DNA from: Gemmatimonadaceae bacterium
Lineage (GTDB): Bacteria; Gemmatimonadota; Gemmatimonadetes; Gemmatimonadales; Gemmatimonadaceae
Direction of reading: 5' to 3'
Length of the DNA: 64,000 bases
NCBI GenBank assembly: GCA_025934775.1
Contig: JAICWO010000009.1
Span: 1 to 64,000 of the forward strand
The notes beneath the pieces are model-generated. The model searched no databases. It was given only the letters and a program-made list of their open reading frames with translations, and was not told the DNA's origin. Below, piece after piece: positions 32,470 through 40,486 of the stretch (positions are counted from its first letter, which is position 1; each line of letters opens with the position of its first letter). The position numbers were made by a program, and so were the translations under genes.

Positions 32470-33236
32470 GAGAGTTCTCCAACAGAGCGAAGGATGGTGC
32501 CGCGCGCCGGATCGGCGATCGCGGCAATGTCAGAGATCCGCACCCGCGCCACGCCGCCGGCGAGCGCCGCGAGCGCGGCCTGCAGCTTGGCTTGCATTCC
32601 GCCCACCGCCGTGCCATCGGCCATGAGCGCGCGTGCGTCGGCCGTGGTGACCTCAAGAATGACGGCGCCATTCCGCATCACACCCGGTACGTCGGCAACC
32701 AGCAGCAGATCGGCAGCGCCCAAGGCGACGGCGATCGCCGCCGCGGCATCGTCGCCGTTCACGTTCAACGCGCTGCCCATGGTGCCGCTCCCGTCACGGC
32801 TCACCGGCGACACCACGGGCAGAAAGCCGCCCGACAAGAGATGTCGCAGAAACGCGACGTTCACGTGCTGCGGCGTGCCGACGAAGCCGAGGGTGGCCGC
32901 GTCCAATGGCGCGGCCGCAATGAGGGCCGCGTCCTCACCCGACAGGCCGACCGCATCCACGCCTTCGCCGACCAAGCTCGAGACGAGACGCTTGTTCGCG
33001 CTGCCCGAAAGACCCATACGAACGAGCTCGATGTCTTTCTCGGTGGTGACGCGGCGTCCATTGACGAAACTCGTACTGCCGCCGAACGCCGCCTGGAGCG
33101 CACTCACTTCGTCGCCGCCGCCGTGCACGAGCACGAGGCCGCCGTTGCGACGCGCGGTCCCCCATCCCGAGGCGAGGATCTTCGCGAGCGAGGGATCGCT
33201 CTGTGGGCGACCCCCGATCTTGATGACCCAGGTCAC
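32466..33236 (-). CDS. argB: Acetylglutamate kinase
   Basis: A 256-residue amino-acid kinase with VIKIGG at the start, LVLVHGGGDEV, GLSGEDAALI and NVNGDDAAAAIA. It phosphorylates N-acetylglutamate. The length matches the short, E. coli-type enzyme and it lacks the extra N-terminal helix of arginine-inhibited forms, so control is probably transcriptional. It overlaps argC and argD by four bases each. Confidence 0.92.
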   Translation of the reverse strand: MTWVIKIGGRPQSDPSLAKILASGWGTARRNGGLVLVHGGGDEVSALQAAFGGSTSFVNGRRVTTEKDIELVRMGLSGSANKRLVSSLVGEGVDAVGLSGEDAALIAAAPLDAATLGFVGTPQHVNVAFLRHLLSGGFLPVVSPVSRDGSGTMGSALNVNGDDAAAAIAVALGAADLLLVADVPGVMRNGAVILEVTTADARALMADGTAVGGMQAKLQAALAALAGGVARVRISDIAAIADPARGTILRSVGELS

Positions 33237-34192
33237 GCCGGCAATCCCGCGGTCTCCTCGAGACCGAGCATCAGGTTGGCGTTCTGCAGCGCCTGGCCCG
33301 CGGCGCCTTTCACGAGATTGTCGATCGCAGATGTCACGAGCAGCATCGGCGCGCGCGTGCCGGCAATCGGCGCGGCTGAAATGCGCACGACGTTTCGGTA
33401 CGCCACGTCGTGCAGCGTCGGCGTCCTCTCAGAGATCTCTATAAAGGGCTCCGTGGCGTATGCGTCGCGCCACGGAGTGAGCGGATCGCCGATCGGCTCC
33501 TTCAACGGAACGGTGATCGTCGACAGGATTCCGCGGGCGACCGGCAGCAAATGCGGCGTAAAGACGAGATCGGCGTTGGCACCCCACGACTGCAAAGTTG
33601 CAGTCATCTCCTTCAAGTGTCGGTGCGTGTTGCCGACGCCGTACGCGCGGAAATCCTCGGACACTTCGGCGAATAGGTACTCGCGCTTTGGCGAGTTGCC
33701 CGCGCCGGTTACACCGCTCGCGGAGTTGGCGATGATCGCGGCCCCGTCAACGATGAGCCCGCGCTGGATGAGCGGCGCGAGCGCGACGAGGATCGACGTC
33801 GGATAGCAGCCGGGATTCGCGACCAGCGACGCGCCGGTGACGGCTTCGCGGTTGATCTCCGTGAGGCCATATGCGATTCCTTCGCATCCGTGGCCGGGGC
33901 GCAGGTCGGACGACAGATCGACGGCCCGCGCACCCACTTCACGCGAGCGCGTCACCCATTCCTTGGAGGCTCCATGCGGCAGCGCGCTGAAGATGAGCTC
34001 AGCGTCGTTCAGCCGCACATCATCGGGCCCGGCAAAGGTCACGTCGCGGCCGGCGACGCGCACGGTTGCACCTCGCTGCTCGTTCGCGGTAGCGAACGCC
34101 AGCATGAGGTCGGGATGCCGTAGAATGAGTGCACAGAGCTCGCGGCCCGCATATCCGCTGGCCCCGAGCACGCCGACTGGTATTTTATTCAC
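33233..34192 (-). CDS. argC: N-acetyl-gamma-glutamyl-phosphate reductase
   Basis: About 319 residues from the chosen GTG. VGVLGASGYAGREL is the NADP-binding loop, ANPGCYPTS holds the catalytic Cys, and HRHLKEM and TPHLLPVARG follow. It makes the semialdehyde used by ArgD. A start nine codons upstream (ATG at 34219) is possible. I prefer the GTG at 34192 because a TTGACA-N17-TATGCA promoter ends six bases before it, implying a leaderless message. First gene of argC-argB-argD-argA-like. Confidence 0.88.
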   Translation of the reverse strand: MNKIPVGVLGASGYAGRELCALILRHPDLMLAFATANEQRGATVRVAGRDVTFAGPDDVRLNDAELIFSALPHGASKEWVTRSREVGARAVDLSSDLRPGHGCEGIAYGLTEINREAVTGASLVANPGCYPTSILVALAPLIQRGLIVDGAAIIANSASGVTGAGNSPKREYLFAEVSEDFRAYGVGNTHRHLKEMTATLQSWGANADLVFTPHLLPVARGILSTITVPLKEPIGDPLTPWRDAYATEPFIEISERTPTLHDVAYRNVVRISAAPIAGTRAPMLLVTSAIDNLVKGAAGQALQNANLMLGLEETAGLPA

Positions 34193-34227
34193 GACGAATG
34201 CATAATAATGCACATGCATCGTGTCAA
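34178..34227 (-). promoter_or_regulatory. argC promoter with two ARG-box-like operators
   Basis: On the minus strand TTGACA (34227-34222), 17 bases and TATGCA (34204-34199) precede the GTG by six bases. TGCATAATAATGCA (34199-34212) is a perfect dyad of the TGNAT-WWWW-ATNCA type expected for ArgR. A second site TGGTATTTTATTCA starts 21 bases away (34178-34191), the same spacing as tandem ARG boxes in E. coli. Confidence 0.75.
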
Positions 34228-34289
34228 TGCCGCCGCGCCTCCACGCGTGCGCGCGCTCGACATCACCCAGCCATCTCACGCACCCGGGA

Positions 34290-34748
34290 ATGACCAATAA
34301 GCAGCAGCGACAGAATACGATCTTGCAGCTTATCGGGGCGCATCAGATCGCTAACCAGGAGGAGCTCAAGCGGCTTCTCGTCGAGCGGGGCCTTCGGGTC
34401 ACGCAGGCGACGCTGTCGCGCGATCTGCGCGAGCTCGGCATCGTCCGCGCTCCGACAGATTCCGGCGCTCGATATCTCCTGCCGGAGATGGTGTCGGACG
34501 AGGCCAAGCCTTCTATTGACATTCTGTTACCGCAGCTGTTCTCTCGGATCGACGGCGTCTCGGAACTCATCGTGCTCCACACGCTGCCGAGCGGCGCGCA
34601 GCCGATCGCGGAAGCGATCGATTCCGAGGCGTGGCCCGAGGTGATGGGGACCCTTGCCGGCGAGAATACGATCTTGATCGTCTGTCGCTCGGTCGATGCG
34701 CGAACGACGCTCACACGCCGCTTGCTGCAGCTCGCGAAACGCGGCTGA
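34290..34748 (+). CDS. argR: Arginine repressor
   Basis: A 152-residue protein of normal ArgR length. The N-terminal winged helix shows QEELKRLLVERGLRVTQATL and SRDLRELGIVR; the C-terminal oligomerisation and arginine-binding domain includes SGAQPIAEAID and a G-T-L-A-G-E-N-T region. It binds ARG boxes with arginine as corepressor. It is divergent from argC and precedes argG. ARG-box-like sites on both sides support a local regulon. The start MTNKQQR has only a weak GGGA before it; earlier codons would add a tail not seen in the family. Confidence 0.92.
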   Translation: MTNKQQRQNTILQLIGAHQIANQEELKRLLVERGLRVTQATLSRDLRELGIVRAPTDSGARYLLPEMVSDEAKPSIDILLPQLFSRIDGVSELIVLHTLPSGAQPIAEAIDSEAWPEVMGTLAGENTILIVCRSVDARTTLTRRLLQLAKRG

Positions 34749-34780
34749 TATCCGGCGGACGACAGTCAGCGTTGCAACTA

Positions 34781-34834
34781 TTGACGCGCGCGAAGCGTAT
34801 GATTAAATATGCAGACACACTGCATAACTACGTG
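34781..34834 (+). promoter_or_regulatory. argG promoter with tandem ARG-box-like sites
   Basis: TTGACG (34781-34786), 17 bases and TAAATA (34804-34809) form a promoter. TGATTAAATATGCA (34800-34813) covers the -10 and shares ATGCA with the argC site. TGCATAACTACGTG (34821-34834) begins 21 bases later. A perfect dyad TATGCAG-N5-CTGCATA spans 34808-34826. Confidence 0.7.
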
Positions 34835-34849
34835 AATCTAGGAGTGCCA

Positions 34850-36121
34850 ATGCCCCGCACGATCGTCCTCGCCTACTCTGGCGGACTCGACACCTCCATC
34901 ATCGTTCCTTGGCTCAAGGAGAACTACGGAGGCGCGCGAGTCATTTGCGTCGCCGCCGACATCGGCCAGGGCAGTGAAGAGCTCGCGGGCGTGCGCGCCA
35001 AAGCGCTCGCCTCCGGCGCCGACGAGTGCTACGTCGAGGATCTGCGGCAGGAGTTCATCGAGTCGTTCATCTATCCGACGCTCCGGGCTGGCGCGATCTA
35101 CAACCGCAAGTACCTGCTCGGCACCTCGATGGCGCGCCCGCTCATCGCGCGCCGCCAGGTCGAGGTCGCGCGCCAGGTCGGCGCGGACGCGCTCGCGCAC
35201 GGGTGCACCGGCAAGGGCAACGATCAGGTGCGTTTCGAGCTCACCTACGCCGCGTTCGCGCCGGATCTCCCGGTCATCGCGCCGTGGCGCGAGTGGGACA
35301 TCCGCAGCCGCGAGGACGCGATCGCGTATGCCGAGTCGCACGGCGTTCCCGTCGCGGCAACGCGGCAGAAGATCTATTCGCGCGACGCCAACATCTGGCA
35401 CCTCTCGCACGAGGGCGGGATCCTCGAGGATCCGAACGCCGCTCCGCCCGACGATCTCTACATGCTCACCAATCCGGTCACGAAGGCGCCCGACGCTCCA
35501 GAGGCGGTCGTCGTTGGCTTTGAGCAGGGTACGCCGGTGTCGGTCAACGGAGAGCGCCTGGGCGCGCTCGATCTGCTGACGACCCTCAACCAGATCGGCG
35601 GCAAGCACGGCTGCGGCGTCGTGGATCTCGTCGAGGATCGATTGGTCGGCATGAAGTCGCGCGGCGTGTACGAGACACCGGGCGGCTCGCTGCTCTACAC
35701 CGCGCACTCGGAGCTGGAGCAGCTCGTCCTCGACCGCCGCACACTCGCGGCGAAAGACATGATTGCGCCGCGCTACGCGGATCTCGTCTACGAAGGACGT
35801 TGGTGGACGACCGAGCGCGAGGCGTACGACGCGTTCGTTGGTATCACGCAGCAGCGTGTCTCGGGCACCGTGACGCTTCGCCTGTACAAGGGTTCGACAG
35901 CCGTGGTCGGCCGGCAGAGCGAGCACGCGCTCTACGACGAGCGCTTCGTCACGTTCGGGGAAGACGATGTGTACGAGCAGAGTGACGCCGCCGGCTTCAT
36001 TCGGTTGTTCGCGCTGCCGTCGCGGGTTCGTGCGCTCAAGGATCAGGAGATGGGTCTTACGCCGGCGCCCGTCGTTGCTCCCGCGGAAGCCGCCGCCCAG
36101 CCGGCGCTTCAGATCGCGTGA
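34850..36121 (+). CDS. argG: Argininosuccinate synthase
   Basis: A 423-residue protein with the ATP-pyrophosphatase loop AYSGGLDTS near the start. It also has ADIGQGSEEL, YLLGTSMARPLIA, HGCTGKGNDQVRFE and DANIWHLSHEGG. It joins citrulline and aspartate. The ATG is preceded by GGAG at 5 bases and lies downstream of an ArgR-type control region. argH follows with a GTGA overlap, so argG and argH form one operon. Confidence 0.97.
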   Translation: MPRTIVLAYSGGLDTSIIVPWLKENYGGARVICVAADIGQGSEELAGVRAKALASGADECYVEDLRQEFIESFIYPTLRAGAIYNRKYLLGTSMARPLIARRQVEVARQVGADALAHGCTGKGNDQVRFELTYAAFAPDLPVIAPWREWDIRSREDAIAYAESHGVPVAATRQKIYSRDANIWHLSHEGGILEDPNAAPPDDLYMLTNPVTKAPDAPEAVVVGFEQGTPVSVNGERLGALDLLTTLNQIGGKHGCGVVDLVEDRLVGMKSRGVYETPGGSLLYTAHSELEQLVLDRRTLAAKDMIAPRYADLVYEGRWWTTEREAYDAFVGITQQRVSGTVTLRLYKGSTAVVGRQSEHALYDERFVTFGEDDVYEQSDAAGFIRLFALPSRVRALKDQEMGLTPAPVVAPAEAAAQPALQIA

Positions 36122-37518
36122 CGACGGTGGCGGTCACGTCCGCGACGGAGAAGTCGCACAAGCTGTGGGGCGGGCGGTTCGCGACCGGGCCCGCCCCGGC
36201 CTTCGAGGCGCTCAACAGCTCGATTGGCATCGACTTCCGACTCTGGCCGTTCGACGTGCAGCTCTCCAAGGCCTGGGCGATGGCGTTGTACAAGGCCGGC
36301 GTGCTGACGCTCGACGAATGCAGTGACATCGAAGACGGCCTCGACTCGGTGGGCGCGCGGCTCGCCGCCGGCGAACAACCGTCGCCGAGCGACGAAGACG
36401 TGCACACGGTGATCGACCGGCTGCTGCACGATGAGATCGGCGATGTTGCATCGAAGCTGCACACTGGGCGAAGCCGAAACGATCAAGTCGCGACGGCGAC
36501 GCGCATGTGGTCGATGGAAGCCGCGGCGCGTCTGGATGACGCCGTTCGCGGCTTTCAGCAGGTGATGGTCGACCACGCGCGTGCGCTCGAGAGCGTGCTC
36601 ATGCCGTCGTACACCCACATGCAGCGCGCAATTCCCGTGTCGGCGGCGCATTGGCTGCTGTCGCACTTCTGGCCGCTGGAGCGCGATCGCGCGCGCCTGC
36701 GCAGCGCCAGAGCCGCGGCCGGCGTTCTGCCACTCGGCTCGGGTGCGGTCGCCGGGTGCGCGTACCCGATCTCGCGTGTGCTGCTCCAGGGCAGCCTCGG
36801 GTTCGCGGCCTTGAGCCAGAATTCGATCGACGCGGTGAGCGATCGCGATTTCGTCGCCGAGCTCCTGTTCACGGCGACGATGATCGCAACGCATCTATCG
36901 AGGTTCGCCGAAGATCTCATCATCTACGGCTCGAGCGAATTTGGCTTCGTGCAATTCGGCGATGCGTTCACGTCGGGATCGAGCATGATGCCGCAGAAGC
37001 GGAATCCCGACGTGCTGGAGCTCGCACGCGGCTCGGCGGCCCGCCTCCTCGGCGATCTCACGACGCTCGTCGCGACGCTCAAAGGTCTACCGACGAGCTA
37101 CAACAAGGACCTGCAGGACGACAAGCGGGTGCTGTTCGACGCGGTGGACACGCTGCAGCTCGTGCTTCCCGCGCTCGCCGGCGCGCTCGCGGAATGCACG
37201 TTCAAGCCGGAGCGTATGCGCGCCGCGCTCTCCAGCACGATGATGGCGACGGATCTCGCCGATTATCTCGTGCGCAAGGGCGCGACATTCCGCGAGGCGC
37301 ATGGTGCCGTCGGTCGACTCGTGCGCAAATGCGAGGAGACCCAGCTCGAGCTGCACACGCTGCCGCTTTCCGCGTTCGCCGAGGCGCATCCGCTCTTCGG
37401 GCAGGATGTGTTCGACGCCCTGTCGGCGCGCCAGTCGGTGGAAGCGCGCGATCTCGAGGGGGGCACCGGGCCGCGCGCCGTGCACGCGCAAATCGAAGCG
37501 GCGCAACGCGCGCTCTGA
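36118..37518 (+). CDS. argH: Argininosuccinate lyase
   Basis: A 466-residue fumarase/aspartase-superfamily protein with KLWGGRF at the N-terminus, HTGRSRNDQVAT, TYMQRAIPVS-like YTHMQRAIPV and the signature GSSMMPQKRNPD. It cleaves argininosuccinate to arginine and fumarate. The GTG start overlaps the argG stop by four bases. A stem-loop lies about 30 bases downstream. Confidence 0.97.
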   Translation: MTTVAVTSATEKSHKLWGGRFATGPAPAFEALNSSIGIDFRLWPFDVQLSKAWAMALYKAGVLTLDECSDIEDGLDSVGARLAAGEQPSPSDEDVHTVIDRLLHDEIGDVASKLHTGRSRNDQVATATRMWSMEAAARLDDAVRGFQQVMVDHARALESVLMPSYTHMQRAIPVSAAHWLLSHFWPLERDRARLRSARAAAGVLPLGSGAVAGCAYPISRVLLQGSLGFAALSQNSIDAVSDRDFVAELLFTATMIATHLSRFAEDLIIYGSSEFGFVQFGDAFTSGSSMMPQKRNPDVLELARGSAARLLGDLTTLVATLKGLPTSYNKDLQDDKRVLFDAVDTLQLVLPALAGALAECTFKPERMRAALSSTMMATDLADYLVRKGATFREAHGAVGRLVRKCEETQLELHTLPLSAFAEAHPLFGQDVFDALSARQSVEARDLEGGTGPRAVHAQIEAAQRAL

Positions 37519-37610: not shown

Positions 37611-38147
37611 CTAGAACATCAGGCCGAACGTAATTGGGACGAAGCTGAAGTCGGCGTTGCTGACGTGGTGGTACCGTGCTTCCACGTACGCGGAGAAGCC
37701 GGTGAGCGGGAATCGGAATCCGCCGCCGATGTTCCAGCCGACATTCGATTGGCTCGACGTGTCGAAGAAGACTGGATCCTTCGTGCTGTAGTAACCGATG
37801 CCGCCGATCGCGTACAGCGAGCTCCCTGGCGCGAGCGAGATCTGCGAGAGGCTGTAGATCGCGTTCGCGATCACGCCGGCCGCGTGCGCCTTGTCGTTTC
37901 CGTTGCTCTGATTGAATTCGTTGTACATGCCCTCGACCCGAAAGCCGAGCGGCGAGAGGGGCGGTCTCAGTTCGATGCCGACAGTCCCATGGTAACCGAC
38001 GTCGTGATTGTCGCCGAAGGTGCCGGTGGGGATCGTCGCGCCGGCCGCGATCACGAAGTGGGCTCCGGTTTGGGCGAGAGACGCGGCAAGGGGGGCGGCC
38101 AGGAAGAGGCCAGCCATTGCCGGGAGAAGGCGAGCGGATCGAATCAT
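37611..38147 (-). CDS. Outer-membrane beta-barrel protein
   Basis: A 178-residue exported protein. A signal peptide is cut near SLAQ (residue 26). The rest alternates polar and hydrophobic residues, with Gly/Tyr-rich strands, and ends in Phe (ITFGLMF), the usual signal for barrel insertion. It resembles OmpW/OmpA-like porin domains. The ligand is unknown. Confidence 0.75.
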   Translation of the reverse strand: MIRSARLLPAMAGLFLAAPLAASLAQTGAHFVIAAGATIPTGTFGDNHDVGYHGTVGIELRPPLSPLGFRVEGMYNEFNQSNGNDKAHAAGVIANAIYSLSQISLAPGSSLYAIGGIGYYSTKDPVFFDTSSQSNVGWNIGGGFRFPLTGFSAYVEARYHHVSNADFSFVPITFGLMF

Positions 38148-38274
38148 GGAATCTCCGAAAGTTCTGTTCGCGTGGTGGCCTTCCAGAATTGTGCCAGCCT
38201 CAGGCGGGGATGTTTCCGAAGACCCGTACGACGAGGAGCAGGTTGGCCTAGCAGCGGTCAGGCTGATAGTTTAT

Positions 38275-38341
38275 TATCCTCGCTCAAAAGGATATTTCCG
38301 GATCGATACACCGTCGATAAATATCCTTTTTACCGAGGATA
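38275..38341. promoter_or_regulatory. Four-half-site nested palindrome before a small DNA-binding protein gene
   Basis: TATCCT-N8-AGGATA occurs twice (38275-38294 and 38322-38341). The copies are arranged so that the whole region is also one large interrupted palindrome: 10-bp outer arms (38273-38282/38334-38343), 12-bp inner arms AAAAGGATATTT and its complement (38286-38297/38319-38330), and a 5-bp core. The right outer arm contains the GAGG ribosome site of the next gene. It is the most AT-rich intergenic stretch nearby. Confidence 0.8.
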
Positions 38342-38344
38342 ATT

Positions 38345-38722
38345 ATGTCAAGGCACTATCATGTTGATATAGCCAGACATGCGTCTGATGCTGACGCGAA
38401 ATGGACTGACAATCTCCTGTCCAAGCACCGCATTCCCGGCGTCGAACACGGAACGCAGGGGGTCGCCAGGCGCCTCTCGGTCCACGCGATCTACCATGTG
38501 GCGCTCGTCCGCCGGCTCGCCCAGCAACTGAGCCTTCCGCTGGACCGTGCCGTCGCCATTGCGACACAACTGCTCGCGACCGACGTTCGACATGTGTCAC
38601 TCGGCGATGGGCTCGAGATTCGACTCGAACGACACGACTTCGCGCGGCACGTCGACGAGCGGATCGCGGACGCGGTCGAGTCTTCGGCGCCGGCGCGGCG
38701 AGGCCGCCCACCGGTGCGTTGA
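38345..38722 (+). CDS. Small putative DNA-binding regulator with AT-hook-like tail
   Basis: A 125-residue protein I cannot place in a family. Helices at about 15-26, 46-62 and 66-79 and a likely beta hairpin at 81-94 suggest a compact helix-turn-helix or winged fold. The last residues read RRGRPP, matching an AT-hook core. It follows an AT-rich four-half-site palindrome whose right arm carries its ribosome site (GAGG), which points to autoregulation. A perfect 20-bp terminator hairpin closes the unit. The function is inferred from layout, not homology. Confidence 0.6.
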   Translation: MSRHYHVDIARHASDADAKWTDNLLSKHRIPGVEHGTQGVARRLSVHAIYHVALVRRLAQQLSLPLDRAVAIATQLLATDVRHVSLGDGLEIRLERHDFARHVDERIADAVESSAPARRGRPPVR

Positions 38723-38751: not shown

Positions 38752-38795
38752 GAAACTGAACGGGGCGCCTCGTGAGAGGCGCCCCGTTCAGTTTC
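38752..38795. terminator. Bidirectional terminator with perfect 20-bp stem
   Basis: GAAACTGAACGGGGCGCCTC, GTGA loop and the exact complement form a 20-bp hairpin between two convergent genes, ending in GTTTC on either side. It lies about 40 bases past the stop of the minus-strand cold-shock gene and 30 past the plus-strand regulator. Confidence 0.85.
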
Positions 38796-38832
38796 AATGC
38801 GTTGTCGTGCGTCTGTGCGTTTGCGCTCCAGC

Positions 38833-39048
38833 TTAGCGAGCGGCGGCCTTGCTTACGTTCTCGGCGGCCGGACCCTTCTGGCCCTGCACGAGATCGAACT
38901 CGACGGCGTCGCCTTCAGCGAGCGTCTTGAAGCCAGAGCCCTGGATGGAGCTGTAGTGGACGAAGCAGTCCTTGTCTCCGCCATCCGGCGTGATGAACCC
39001 GAAGCCCTTGGCGTCGTTGAACCACTTCACCTTTCCGGTCGTGCGCAT
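38833..39048 (-). CDS. csp: Cold-shock protein (CspA family)
   Basis: A 71-residue cold-shock protein with KGFGFI and [11 protein letters not shown]-binding motifs and [16 protein letters not shown] lies 6 bases before the ATG. A promoter about 90 bases upstream implies a long leader, as in cold-inducible csp genes. It has one Cys in the second motif, unlike its paralogue at 17472. Confidence 0.95.
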
Positions 39049-39140
39049 GTCCCACTCCTGAAAGAACCAAATCCGCTACAACACCATGTTGCGCGGGCGA
39101 TGATGCCCCACCGGACGCAGCCGTCGGTCGGGCGACGGCG

Positions 39141-39169
39141 AAAGTAGTAACGCCTGAGAACCTCGTCAA
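39141..39169 (-). promoter_or_regulatory. Promoter of the second cold-shock gene
   Basis: On the minus strand TTGACG (39169-39164), 17 bases and TACTTT (39146-39141). The expected start near 39134 leaves a leader of about 85 bases before the cold-shock ATG. Confidence 0.65.
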
Positions 39170-39247
39170 GCGTGGAGCAGCCGGCGTCATGGGTGGCAGC
39201 GCTCGCGGGCTATCTTTCGGCTAGCCTGAATCATCGAGGACCGAGAC

Positions 39248-40486
39248 GTGGCATTTGAAATCCGTCGCAAGACCGTGACGACGCTCGTCGGAGACGTGCC
39301 GGTCGGTTCGTCGGCCCCGGTGGCCGTGCAATCCATGACGAACACCGACACCGCGGATCCCCGCGCGACGGCCGAACAGGTGCTCGCGCTCGCTCGCGCG
39401 GGCTCGCAATTGGTTCGCGTGACCGTGAACAACGAGGAAGCGGCGGCCGCCGTGCCGGAGATCGCGCGCCGCACGGCCGATGCCGGTGTGACCGTCCCGA
39501 TCGTTGGAGACTTCCATTACAACGGGCACCTGCTGCTCGCCAAGTACCCGGAATGCGCGCGCACGCTCGCCAAGTACCGTATCAATCCCGGCAATGTCGG
39601 CGGCAAGCGGCGCGATGAGAATTTTCGAACGATCGTCCAGATCGCGGGCGACAACGGCAAGCCGGTCCGGATTGGCGTGAACTGGGGATCACTCGACCAG
39701 GATCTCCTCACGCAAATGATGGACGCGAACGCCGCGTCGCCGACGCCGCGCGACGCGAAAGACGTCTACATCGAGGCGATGCTCGCGAGCGCTCTTCGCT
39801 CAGCCGAGCTGGCCGAGGAGGTGGGGCTGGGGCACGACCGCATCATCATCTCGGCAAAAGTCTCCGGCGTGCAGGATCTCGTGGACGTCTACCGCCTCCT
39901 CGCGGCGCGTTGCGATTATCCGCTGCATCTCGGACTCACCGAAGCGGGAATGGGCATGAAGGGTATTGTCGCGAGCACCGCCGGGCTTTCGATTTTGCTC
40001 GCGGAAGGGATCGGCGACACGATCCGCGTATCGCTCACGCCCAAGCCGAACGGCGATCGAACAGAAGAAGTCCTGGTCGCGCAACAGATCCTCCAGTCGC
40101 TCGGACTTCGGAGCTTCGCCCCGCAGGTGACGGCATGTCCGGGCTGCGGCCGTACCACGTCGACGTTCTTCCAGCACATGGCGGAAGACATTCAGACGTA
40201 CATTCGCGAGCAGATGCCGGTATGGCGCGATGAGCGTCCCGGTGTGGAAGAGTTGAAGGTCGCGGTGATGGGGTGTGTGGTGAACGGCCCGGGTGAGTCC
40301 AAGCACGCGAACATTGGCATCTCATTGCCTGGCACGTTCGAGGAGCCGAAAGCGCCGGTATACGTGGATGGGAAGCTCTTCACCACGCTGCGCGGCGACA
40401 CCATCGTCCACGATTTTTTGGGAATACTCGAGGAGTACGTGGCGTCGCATTACACACTCCGCGCGCGGGAGACGGCGGGCGTGTGA
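39248..40486 (+). CDS. ispG: 4-hydroxy-3-methylbut-2-en-1-yl diphosphate synthase
   Basis: A 412-residue protein with [11 protein letters not shown] at the N-terminus, VGDFHYNGH, the Cys pair in [13 protein letters not shown] and [10 protein letters not shown], the ligands of a [4Fe-4S] cluster. It catalyses the penultimate step of the MEP isoprenoid pathway. It has the short, non-plant architecture. The GTG start is preceded by GAGGACCGAGAC. It converges on the HD-hydrolase gene. Confidence 0.95.

Follow-up and report, generated by a model that had tools for sequence, protein, structure and literature searches.

The window, a 64,000-nucleotide stretch of Gemmatimonadaceae DNA, contains a 125-residue open reading frame preceded by two copies of the palindrome TATCCT-N8-AGGATA, and the question raised by this locus is what the small protein does and whether the palindromes serve its own control. 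A sequence-only reading had taken the unit for a compact self-regulated switch, in which a repressor might loop the DNA between two operators or an mRNA hairpin might hide the ribosome site. The comparative analysis reported here makes it rather probable that the gene encodes an orphan, antitoxin-like negative autorepressor that has no toxin, adopts a MerR fold, has a dyad operator at its own start and resides at an argH/csp address (Table 1).

The elements on which that reading was built are present in the window: both palindrome copies, with 47 bp between their centres, the near-continuous 71-base palindrome which they jointly form, the ribosome site in its right arm and the 125-residue gene, which ends in RRGRPPVR and so includes the RRGRPP tail. 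The 20-bp terminator was borne out in part, since the perfect repeat exists and a hairpin stands at this place in relatives, but a T-run outside the stem is absent and the terminator scan made no call. Two further observations concern the surroundings of the gene. Genes similar to argC, argR, argG and argH adjoin the regulator (33233-37518), and Rfam gives a weak cspA thermoregulator match, largely coding, over csp (38758-39260, minus strand; 31 bits where the gathering value is 78, E 5e-6).

Table 1. Positions of the regulator, its candidate operators and neighbouring features in the window
Feature	Position	Strand	Basis and remarks
argH, conserved upstream neighbour	36118..37518	+	argH-like; same strand, upstream in 66/90 loci
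Outer-membrane beta-barrel (OMP) gene	37611..38147	-	Pfam PF13505; divergent, often between argH and regulator
71-nt nested inverted repeat formed by O1 and O2	38273..38343	.	Arms 38273-38297 and 38319-38343, 25 nt each, 92% complementary, 21-nt gap; this genome alone, not conserved
Distal operator copy O2, TATCCT-CGCTCAAA-AGGATA	38275..38294	.	Second upstream N8 palindrome in a subset of relatives only
Proximal operator O1, TATCCT-TTTTACCG-AGGATA	38322..38341	.	Orthologue footprint about 38319-38344, AAWTATCCT-N8-AGGATWATT
AGGA, likely Shine-Dalgarno, in right half of O1	38336..38339	+	Sequence; position conserved in orthologues; 5 nt to ATG 38345
125-aa predicted repressor, MerR-fold, CvkR-like, antitoxin-like	38345..38722	+	AlphaFold2 model, CvkR structural match, 90 orthologous loci
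RRGRPP tail, residues 118-123, AT-hook core RGRP	38696..38713	+	Orthologue alignment; Pfam AT_hook weak
Perfect 20-bp inverted repeat between convergent regulator and csp, probable shared terminator	38752..38795	.	Arms 38752-38771 and 38776-38795; no T tail called
Cold-shock protein gene csp (CSD), conserved convergent neighbour	38833..39048	-	Pfam PF00313, E 3e-31

Locus and operator across the Gemmatimonadaceae

The window protein or its profile found matches in 96 of 179 Gemmatimonadaceae genomes, a few of which match through a longer paralogue only, and an orthologue set of 90 loci from 89 Gemmatimonadaceae genomes was fetched and oriented. Among the near relatives are two Gemmatimonadetes/Gemmatimonadaceae metagenome assemblies, and tblastn with the window protein gave no match in plasmids and phages. 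The neighbours met across the orthologous loci are argH, the OMP gene, csp and ispG; csp lies convergently downstream of the regulator in 85 of the 86 informative loci, and a hairpin with 9 or more pairs stands between the two genes in 79 of 81. The fixed argH and csp neighbours and the kept hairpin therefore mark the regulator as an old gene at a fixed address and as a real reading frame.

A search of other genomes for the protein together with the AGGATA arrangement, as proposed in the sequence-only reading, showed that the proximal palindrome recurs at these orthologous loci. Amongst the 89 scorable loci, 33 have all 12 half-site positions (12/12) with a spacer of exactly 8 within ~45 nt of the start, and 42 reach 11/12 or better, with a spacer of exactly 8 in 42/42; only 0.02% of shuffled upstream regions reached 11/12. 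About half of the loci (47/89) have operators below 11/12, and the consensus operator has largely been lost in clade g13 and part of clade g44. The left edge of O1 usually lies 21-28 nt upstream of the start codon, so that the right half-site overlaps the ribosome site. Alignment of the orthologues gives a footprint of AAWTATCCT-N8-AGGATWATT, with little conservation further upstream. In the 4.88-Mb genome to which the window belongs TATCCT-N8-AGGATA occurs exactly twice, both times before the 125-residue gene, and a whole-genome scan allowing at most one mismatch returned O1 and O2 alone, so the scan suggested earlier for further copies yielded nothing beyond the pair in the window. The sites are not due to chance, because the genome holds only these two near-exact sites and the proximal one recurs in orthologues.

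An exact-motif scan of the 179 family genomes gave 37 sites in 33 genomes, 35 of them directly before the regulator gene and the remaining two inside one sensor histidine kinase coding sequence in two sister genomes, and the reversed-motif control gave a single site. All genomes with an exact site carry the regulator gene and none of the gene-less genomes has one; the operator is thus private to the regulator gene. The absence of another strong site is odd for a regulator and counts against reading the protein as an autorepressor, as do the many loci with operators below 11/12. Self-repression might instead be homeostasis for a wider regulator or nucleoid-type protein, the main work of which would be done at degenerate or AT-rich sites via its RGRP tail. 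The almost invariant AT-hook core speaks for such a role, as does the retention of the gene in about half of the family's genomes, where it must have some use; against it, no other exact non-coding operator site exists in the 179 genomes, and the near-matches within the genus look like chance. We consider this explanation unlikely, if still a serious one. A regulon beyond the gene itself was rejected as a candidate on the same near-matches, which have 2-3 mismatches and of which five were examined, none being convincing as a shared target. A single further candidate site has an operator-like spacer, an AT-rich near-match in a sister genome, ATAATCCT-N8-AGGAAAAT (L142:982-1005; G004:C9:206881-206904), which lies near transporter-like reading frames.

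The two halves of the operator, and possibly the protein with them, appear to have changed jointly. At half-site position 11, A/T swaps were paired in 53 of 75 cases (71%, against 48% expected), and 0/2000 shuffles gave a value as high. Both half-sites are altered symmetrically in G063 (TATCCG..CGGATA) and in G123 (TATCGA..ACGATA), and both are altered in G163 (AAATAATTTC..GAAATTATTT). Eight proteins have an altered D22-N23 pair in the predicted recognition helix, and an operator of at least 11/12 accompanies 0/8 of these compared with 41/80 of those with D22-N23 intact (Fisher p 0.006, a value that overstates independence as the sequences are related), an association between the two sequences which is suggestive. 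Loci with the consensus operator are found in each of the two deep halves of the protein tree, and hence a single proximal operator is probably ancestral.

Predicted fold and toxin-linked paralogues

The window protein matched no real family in Pfam, NCBIfam, PHROGs or PADLOC, nor in a profile search of PDB sequences, where the top matches were designed repeat proteins. Matches of some orthologues to HTH_17, MerR_1 and excisionase families were weak (for MerR_1, E 0.029 in 1/70 orthologues). The earlier description of the protein as of unknown family hence holds for sequence libraries but not for its predicted fold, which is MerR-type and closest to CvkR. The AlphaFold2 model (pLDDT 89.6, pTM 0.81) comprises a winged helix, two strands, a long helix and a flexible tail; a coiled-coil dimerisation helix and a ligand-binding domain are not in the model, in which the winged helix-turn-helix (wHTH) is followed by two strands and one helix and then the tail. 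The best structural match in the PDB was CvkR (7xn2; Z 11.3, rmsd 2.4 over 109 residues, covering residues 2-112), which Foldseek matched with an E value of 0.0035 and a probability of 1.00. Nearly all of the top structural matches were MerR wHTH domains, and MerR proteins other than CvkR match mainly the winged helix, the CueR match covering the wHTH alone; the model has both the wHTH and the strand/helix region in the CvkR arrangement. From this model the protein is predicted to combine a winged helix of MerR type and a beta-hairpin/helix domain, and to resemble CvkR most.

G39 and R42, the latter in the predicted wing, are invariant in the 90 orthologues. The AT-hook tail noticed in the sequence-only reading is likewise a feature of the family, as R119, G120 and P122 occur in 90/90 orthologues and R121 in 89/90, with the RGRP core standing in a basic/proline context in 89/90; Pfam AT_hook gave a weak match in 2/70 orthologues (E 0.086). 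Through this tail the protein may touch the AT-rich flanks of its operator in the minor groove.

Weaker profile matches proved to be longer paralogues within the same family and order. Nucleotidyltransferase similarity (E<=0.01) was found at 26 of 29 paralogue loci versus 0 of the 90 orthologous loci, with none in the window. At 13 of the 29 a ~160-aa nucleotidyltransferase gene follows the paralogue gene, mostly overlapping it by a few bases, and for other paralogues the similarity falls inside a longer, fused frame at the locus. Two of the coupled nucleotidyltransferases were tested against PF08843 (AbiEii), one scoring above the cut-off and matching PADLOC AbiEii as well; the operon structure and this AbiEii match make the first genes of the toxin-linked pairs putative antitoxins. 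The group of the window protein aligned with the toxin-linked group by hhalign over 115 columns, including RGRPP (probability 99.0, E 7e-18), and the best structural match of a model for the antitoxin-like group was again CvkR (Z 9.3). When the antitoxin-like profile was run against the window's genome, its sole match was the window gene itself.

Several paralogue genes have start-abutting palindromes of their own, for example AAATATATCTAG-tcg-CTAGATATATTT and AAAATATATATGAT-a-ATCATATATATTTT, about ten of them at a shuffle p<=0.01 and with right arms that lack AGGA. The wider family thus tends to carry private operators close to the gene start, as would be expected of antitoxin autorepressors.

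The paralogues are also of interest in their own right. Putative two-gene toxin-antitoxin operons of the Gemmatimonadota (loci L114, L115, L116, L117, L120, L121, L157 and L159-L164) pair a MerR-fold, RGRPP-bearing first gene, which no curated family names, with an AbiEii-type nucleotidyltransferase. At L112, L113, L118, L119, L147-L156 and L158 the MerR-fold part is apparently fused to a nucleotidyltransferase-like C-terminal part, and several of these fused paralogues precede a gene that has the hydrolase-like motif VVVVHEIFGL. A search of one literature collection for a Gemmatimonadota MerR or nucleotidyltransferase toxin-antitoxin family found none.

Proposed control at the gene start

Negative autoregulation is strongly supported by the sequence comparison. 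A dimer of the MerR-fold protein would bind AAWTATCCT-N8-AGGATWATT over its own transcription and translation start and, at O1, would block transcription initiation, ribosome access or both, such that its own level would be held constant. In the window's genus O2, 47 bp upstream, would add a second, possibly graded, binding event flanking the promoter region. The protein belongs to the same family as the putative AbiEii-linked antitoxins, to which its homology is clear, minus their C-terminal tail and toxin gene, and we infer an antitoxin origin, with the change running from antitoxin to orphan; as an antitoxin-like autorepressor it has probably been domesticated. A fuller account, which we hold tentatively and at somewhat short of even chances, is that of a domesticated antitoxin whose toxin-free DNA-binding half has been kept at argH/csp with a private operator co-varying with the recognition helix, either for a cellular signal or partner of its own or as protection from newly arriving toxin modules of the same family. 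What endures of the compact switch is the conserved, near-exclusive operator and the RGRP tail, and not its loop and hairpin switching modes.

Most orthologous loci have the proximal site alone. A distal copy of at least 10/12 is present in ten genomes, at spacings of 47 bp (the window's genus), 49, 53 and 28 bp, and weaker distal copies occur at 36 and 45-52 bp. The suggested looping of a repressor between two operators finds little favour in this distribution, in which single sites prevail and the spacing varies (28, 36, 45-53 bp). Moreover, a separation of 47 bp, or some 4.5 helical turns, leaves very little DNA for a loop, and on this geometry looping is unlikely. A tie between the distal operator and the divergent OMP gene was ruled out, the distal copy being present also in the OMP-less loci G001, G003, G006 and G131.

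Another explanation places the element in the mRNA, where the leader palindrome would fold and UCCU would hide AGGA in a translational switch or thermosensor, the two copies making a 71-nt hairpin. AGGA does sit in the right arm, and paired changes occur, although RNA pairing and DNA dyad symmetry coincide. The 71-nt fold in this genome is very stable, at -29.8 kcal/mol where shuffled sequences have a mean of -8.9, and the mean for single sites is -7.9 kcal/mol. The 22-pair arm-to-arm stem is, however, found only in the window's genome; in 10 of the 20 two-site loci the arms do not pair with each other at all, and complementarity of the spacers is 6/8 in the window versus a mean of 3.4/8 over the 20. 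The nested stem, not being conserved, therefore results incidentally from the symmetry of the two operators and a chance likeness of their spacers, and as an accident of this genome it argues against the hairpin that had been proposed to hide the ribosome site. Conservation of sequence besides pairing, the invariant spacer of the 42 best sites, the lack of a ribosome site in the distal copy and of AGGA in the start-abutting palindromes of the related antitoxin-like genes, and the lack of an Rfam match at the leader all weigh on the same side, and we judge an mRNA element to be improbable.

The promoter scan of the window gave TCGATA-N18-GATAAT around the proximal site, and that -10 would place the RNA start after the ATG. 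Convincing -35/-10 pairs were seen in a minority of relatives only, and no conserved promoter position relative to the operator was found among them; in those with better promoters (G166, G063-G065, G141 and G142) the -10 lies upstream of the operator. Two loci of genus g13 (L036 and L053, in G141 and G142) have a perfect TTGACA-N17/18-TATAAT upstream of diverged operators. A classical MerR mechanism, in which the protein sits between the -35 and -10 of a long spacer and an effector switches the protein's own promoter from repression to activation, has the predicted MerR fold and the TCGATA-N18-GATAAT arrangement in its favour but is very improbable, as its candidate -10 would start the RNA downstream of a conserved ATG, the protein resembles CvkR in having no predicted effector domain, and the better promoters of relatives lie elsewhere with respect to the operator.

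Comparison with known systems

An autorepressor of this kind would turn an anonymous reading frame into a defined family with a candidate operator, that is, a CvkR-type MerR fold outside CRISPR transposons and linked to nucleotidyltransferase toxin-antitoxin operons. Its proteins, sites and toxin-linked relatives would form a series for studying both the passage from antitoxin repressor to stand-alone regulator and the joint change of a repressor and its private operator.

HiNmlR-type proteins (5d8c, 5e01) have a MerR fold without a sensor domain and bind palindromic promoter DNA, as the window protein would, but are less similar (Z 7.1) and have another C-terminal region. Classical MerR proteins (CueR, BmrR, SoxR; PMC9909328) share the winged helix (for CueR, Z 9.0 over 76 residues) and a long dyad operator; unlike them the window protein has no predicted coiled-coil dimerisation helix or ligand domain, and the classical operator lies inside a 19-20 bp -35/-10 spacer, whilst the one seen here is placed only by its position at the gene start.

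The antitoxins AbiEi and Rv2827c occupy inverted repeats that overlap the promoters of their own genes, AbiEi binding 23-bp repeats as cooperating monomers, and AbiE-type antitoxins show negative autoregulation through one or two pairs of repeats (PMC7319586). The likeness lies in repeats over the own start and in the coupling of the paralogues of the window protein to an AbiEii-type nucleotidyltransferase, whereas the window protein stands alone, toxin-less and without the C-terminal tail of its toxin-linked relatives. The window protein gave no sequence match to AbiEi, and the absence of AbiEi and Rv2827c from the structure matches counts neither for nor against kinship.

The closest counterpart is CvkR (Alr3614), a MerR-type repressor of type V-K CAST systems (PDB 7xn2), which controls cas12k and tnsB, self-repression not being reported in the part of that paper drawn upon here (PMC9938897), a point against the autorepressor reading. 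Strands and a short helix make up the dimer interface of CvkR, which has no recognisable effector domain and whose DNA binding depends on R42 in the wing (PMC9938897). The two proteins differ in that they share about 12% identity, in the operator (AnnACATnATGTnnT in CvkR versus TATCCT-N8-AGGATA in the window), and in that the only strong site of the window protein is its own gene, with an RGRPP tail on the protein and no CAST or cas12k nearby. They are alike in the MerR wHTH with a strand/helix dimerisation region in place of the coiled coil, in having no recognised effector domain, in palindromic operators at promoters and in the wing R42, to which the invariant arginine 42 in the predicted wing of the window family would correspond. 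The unusual architecture of CvkR would thereby gain a wider family.
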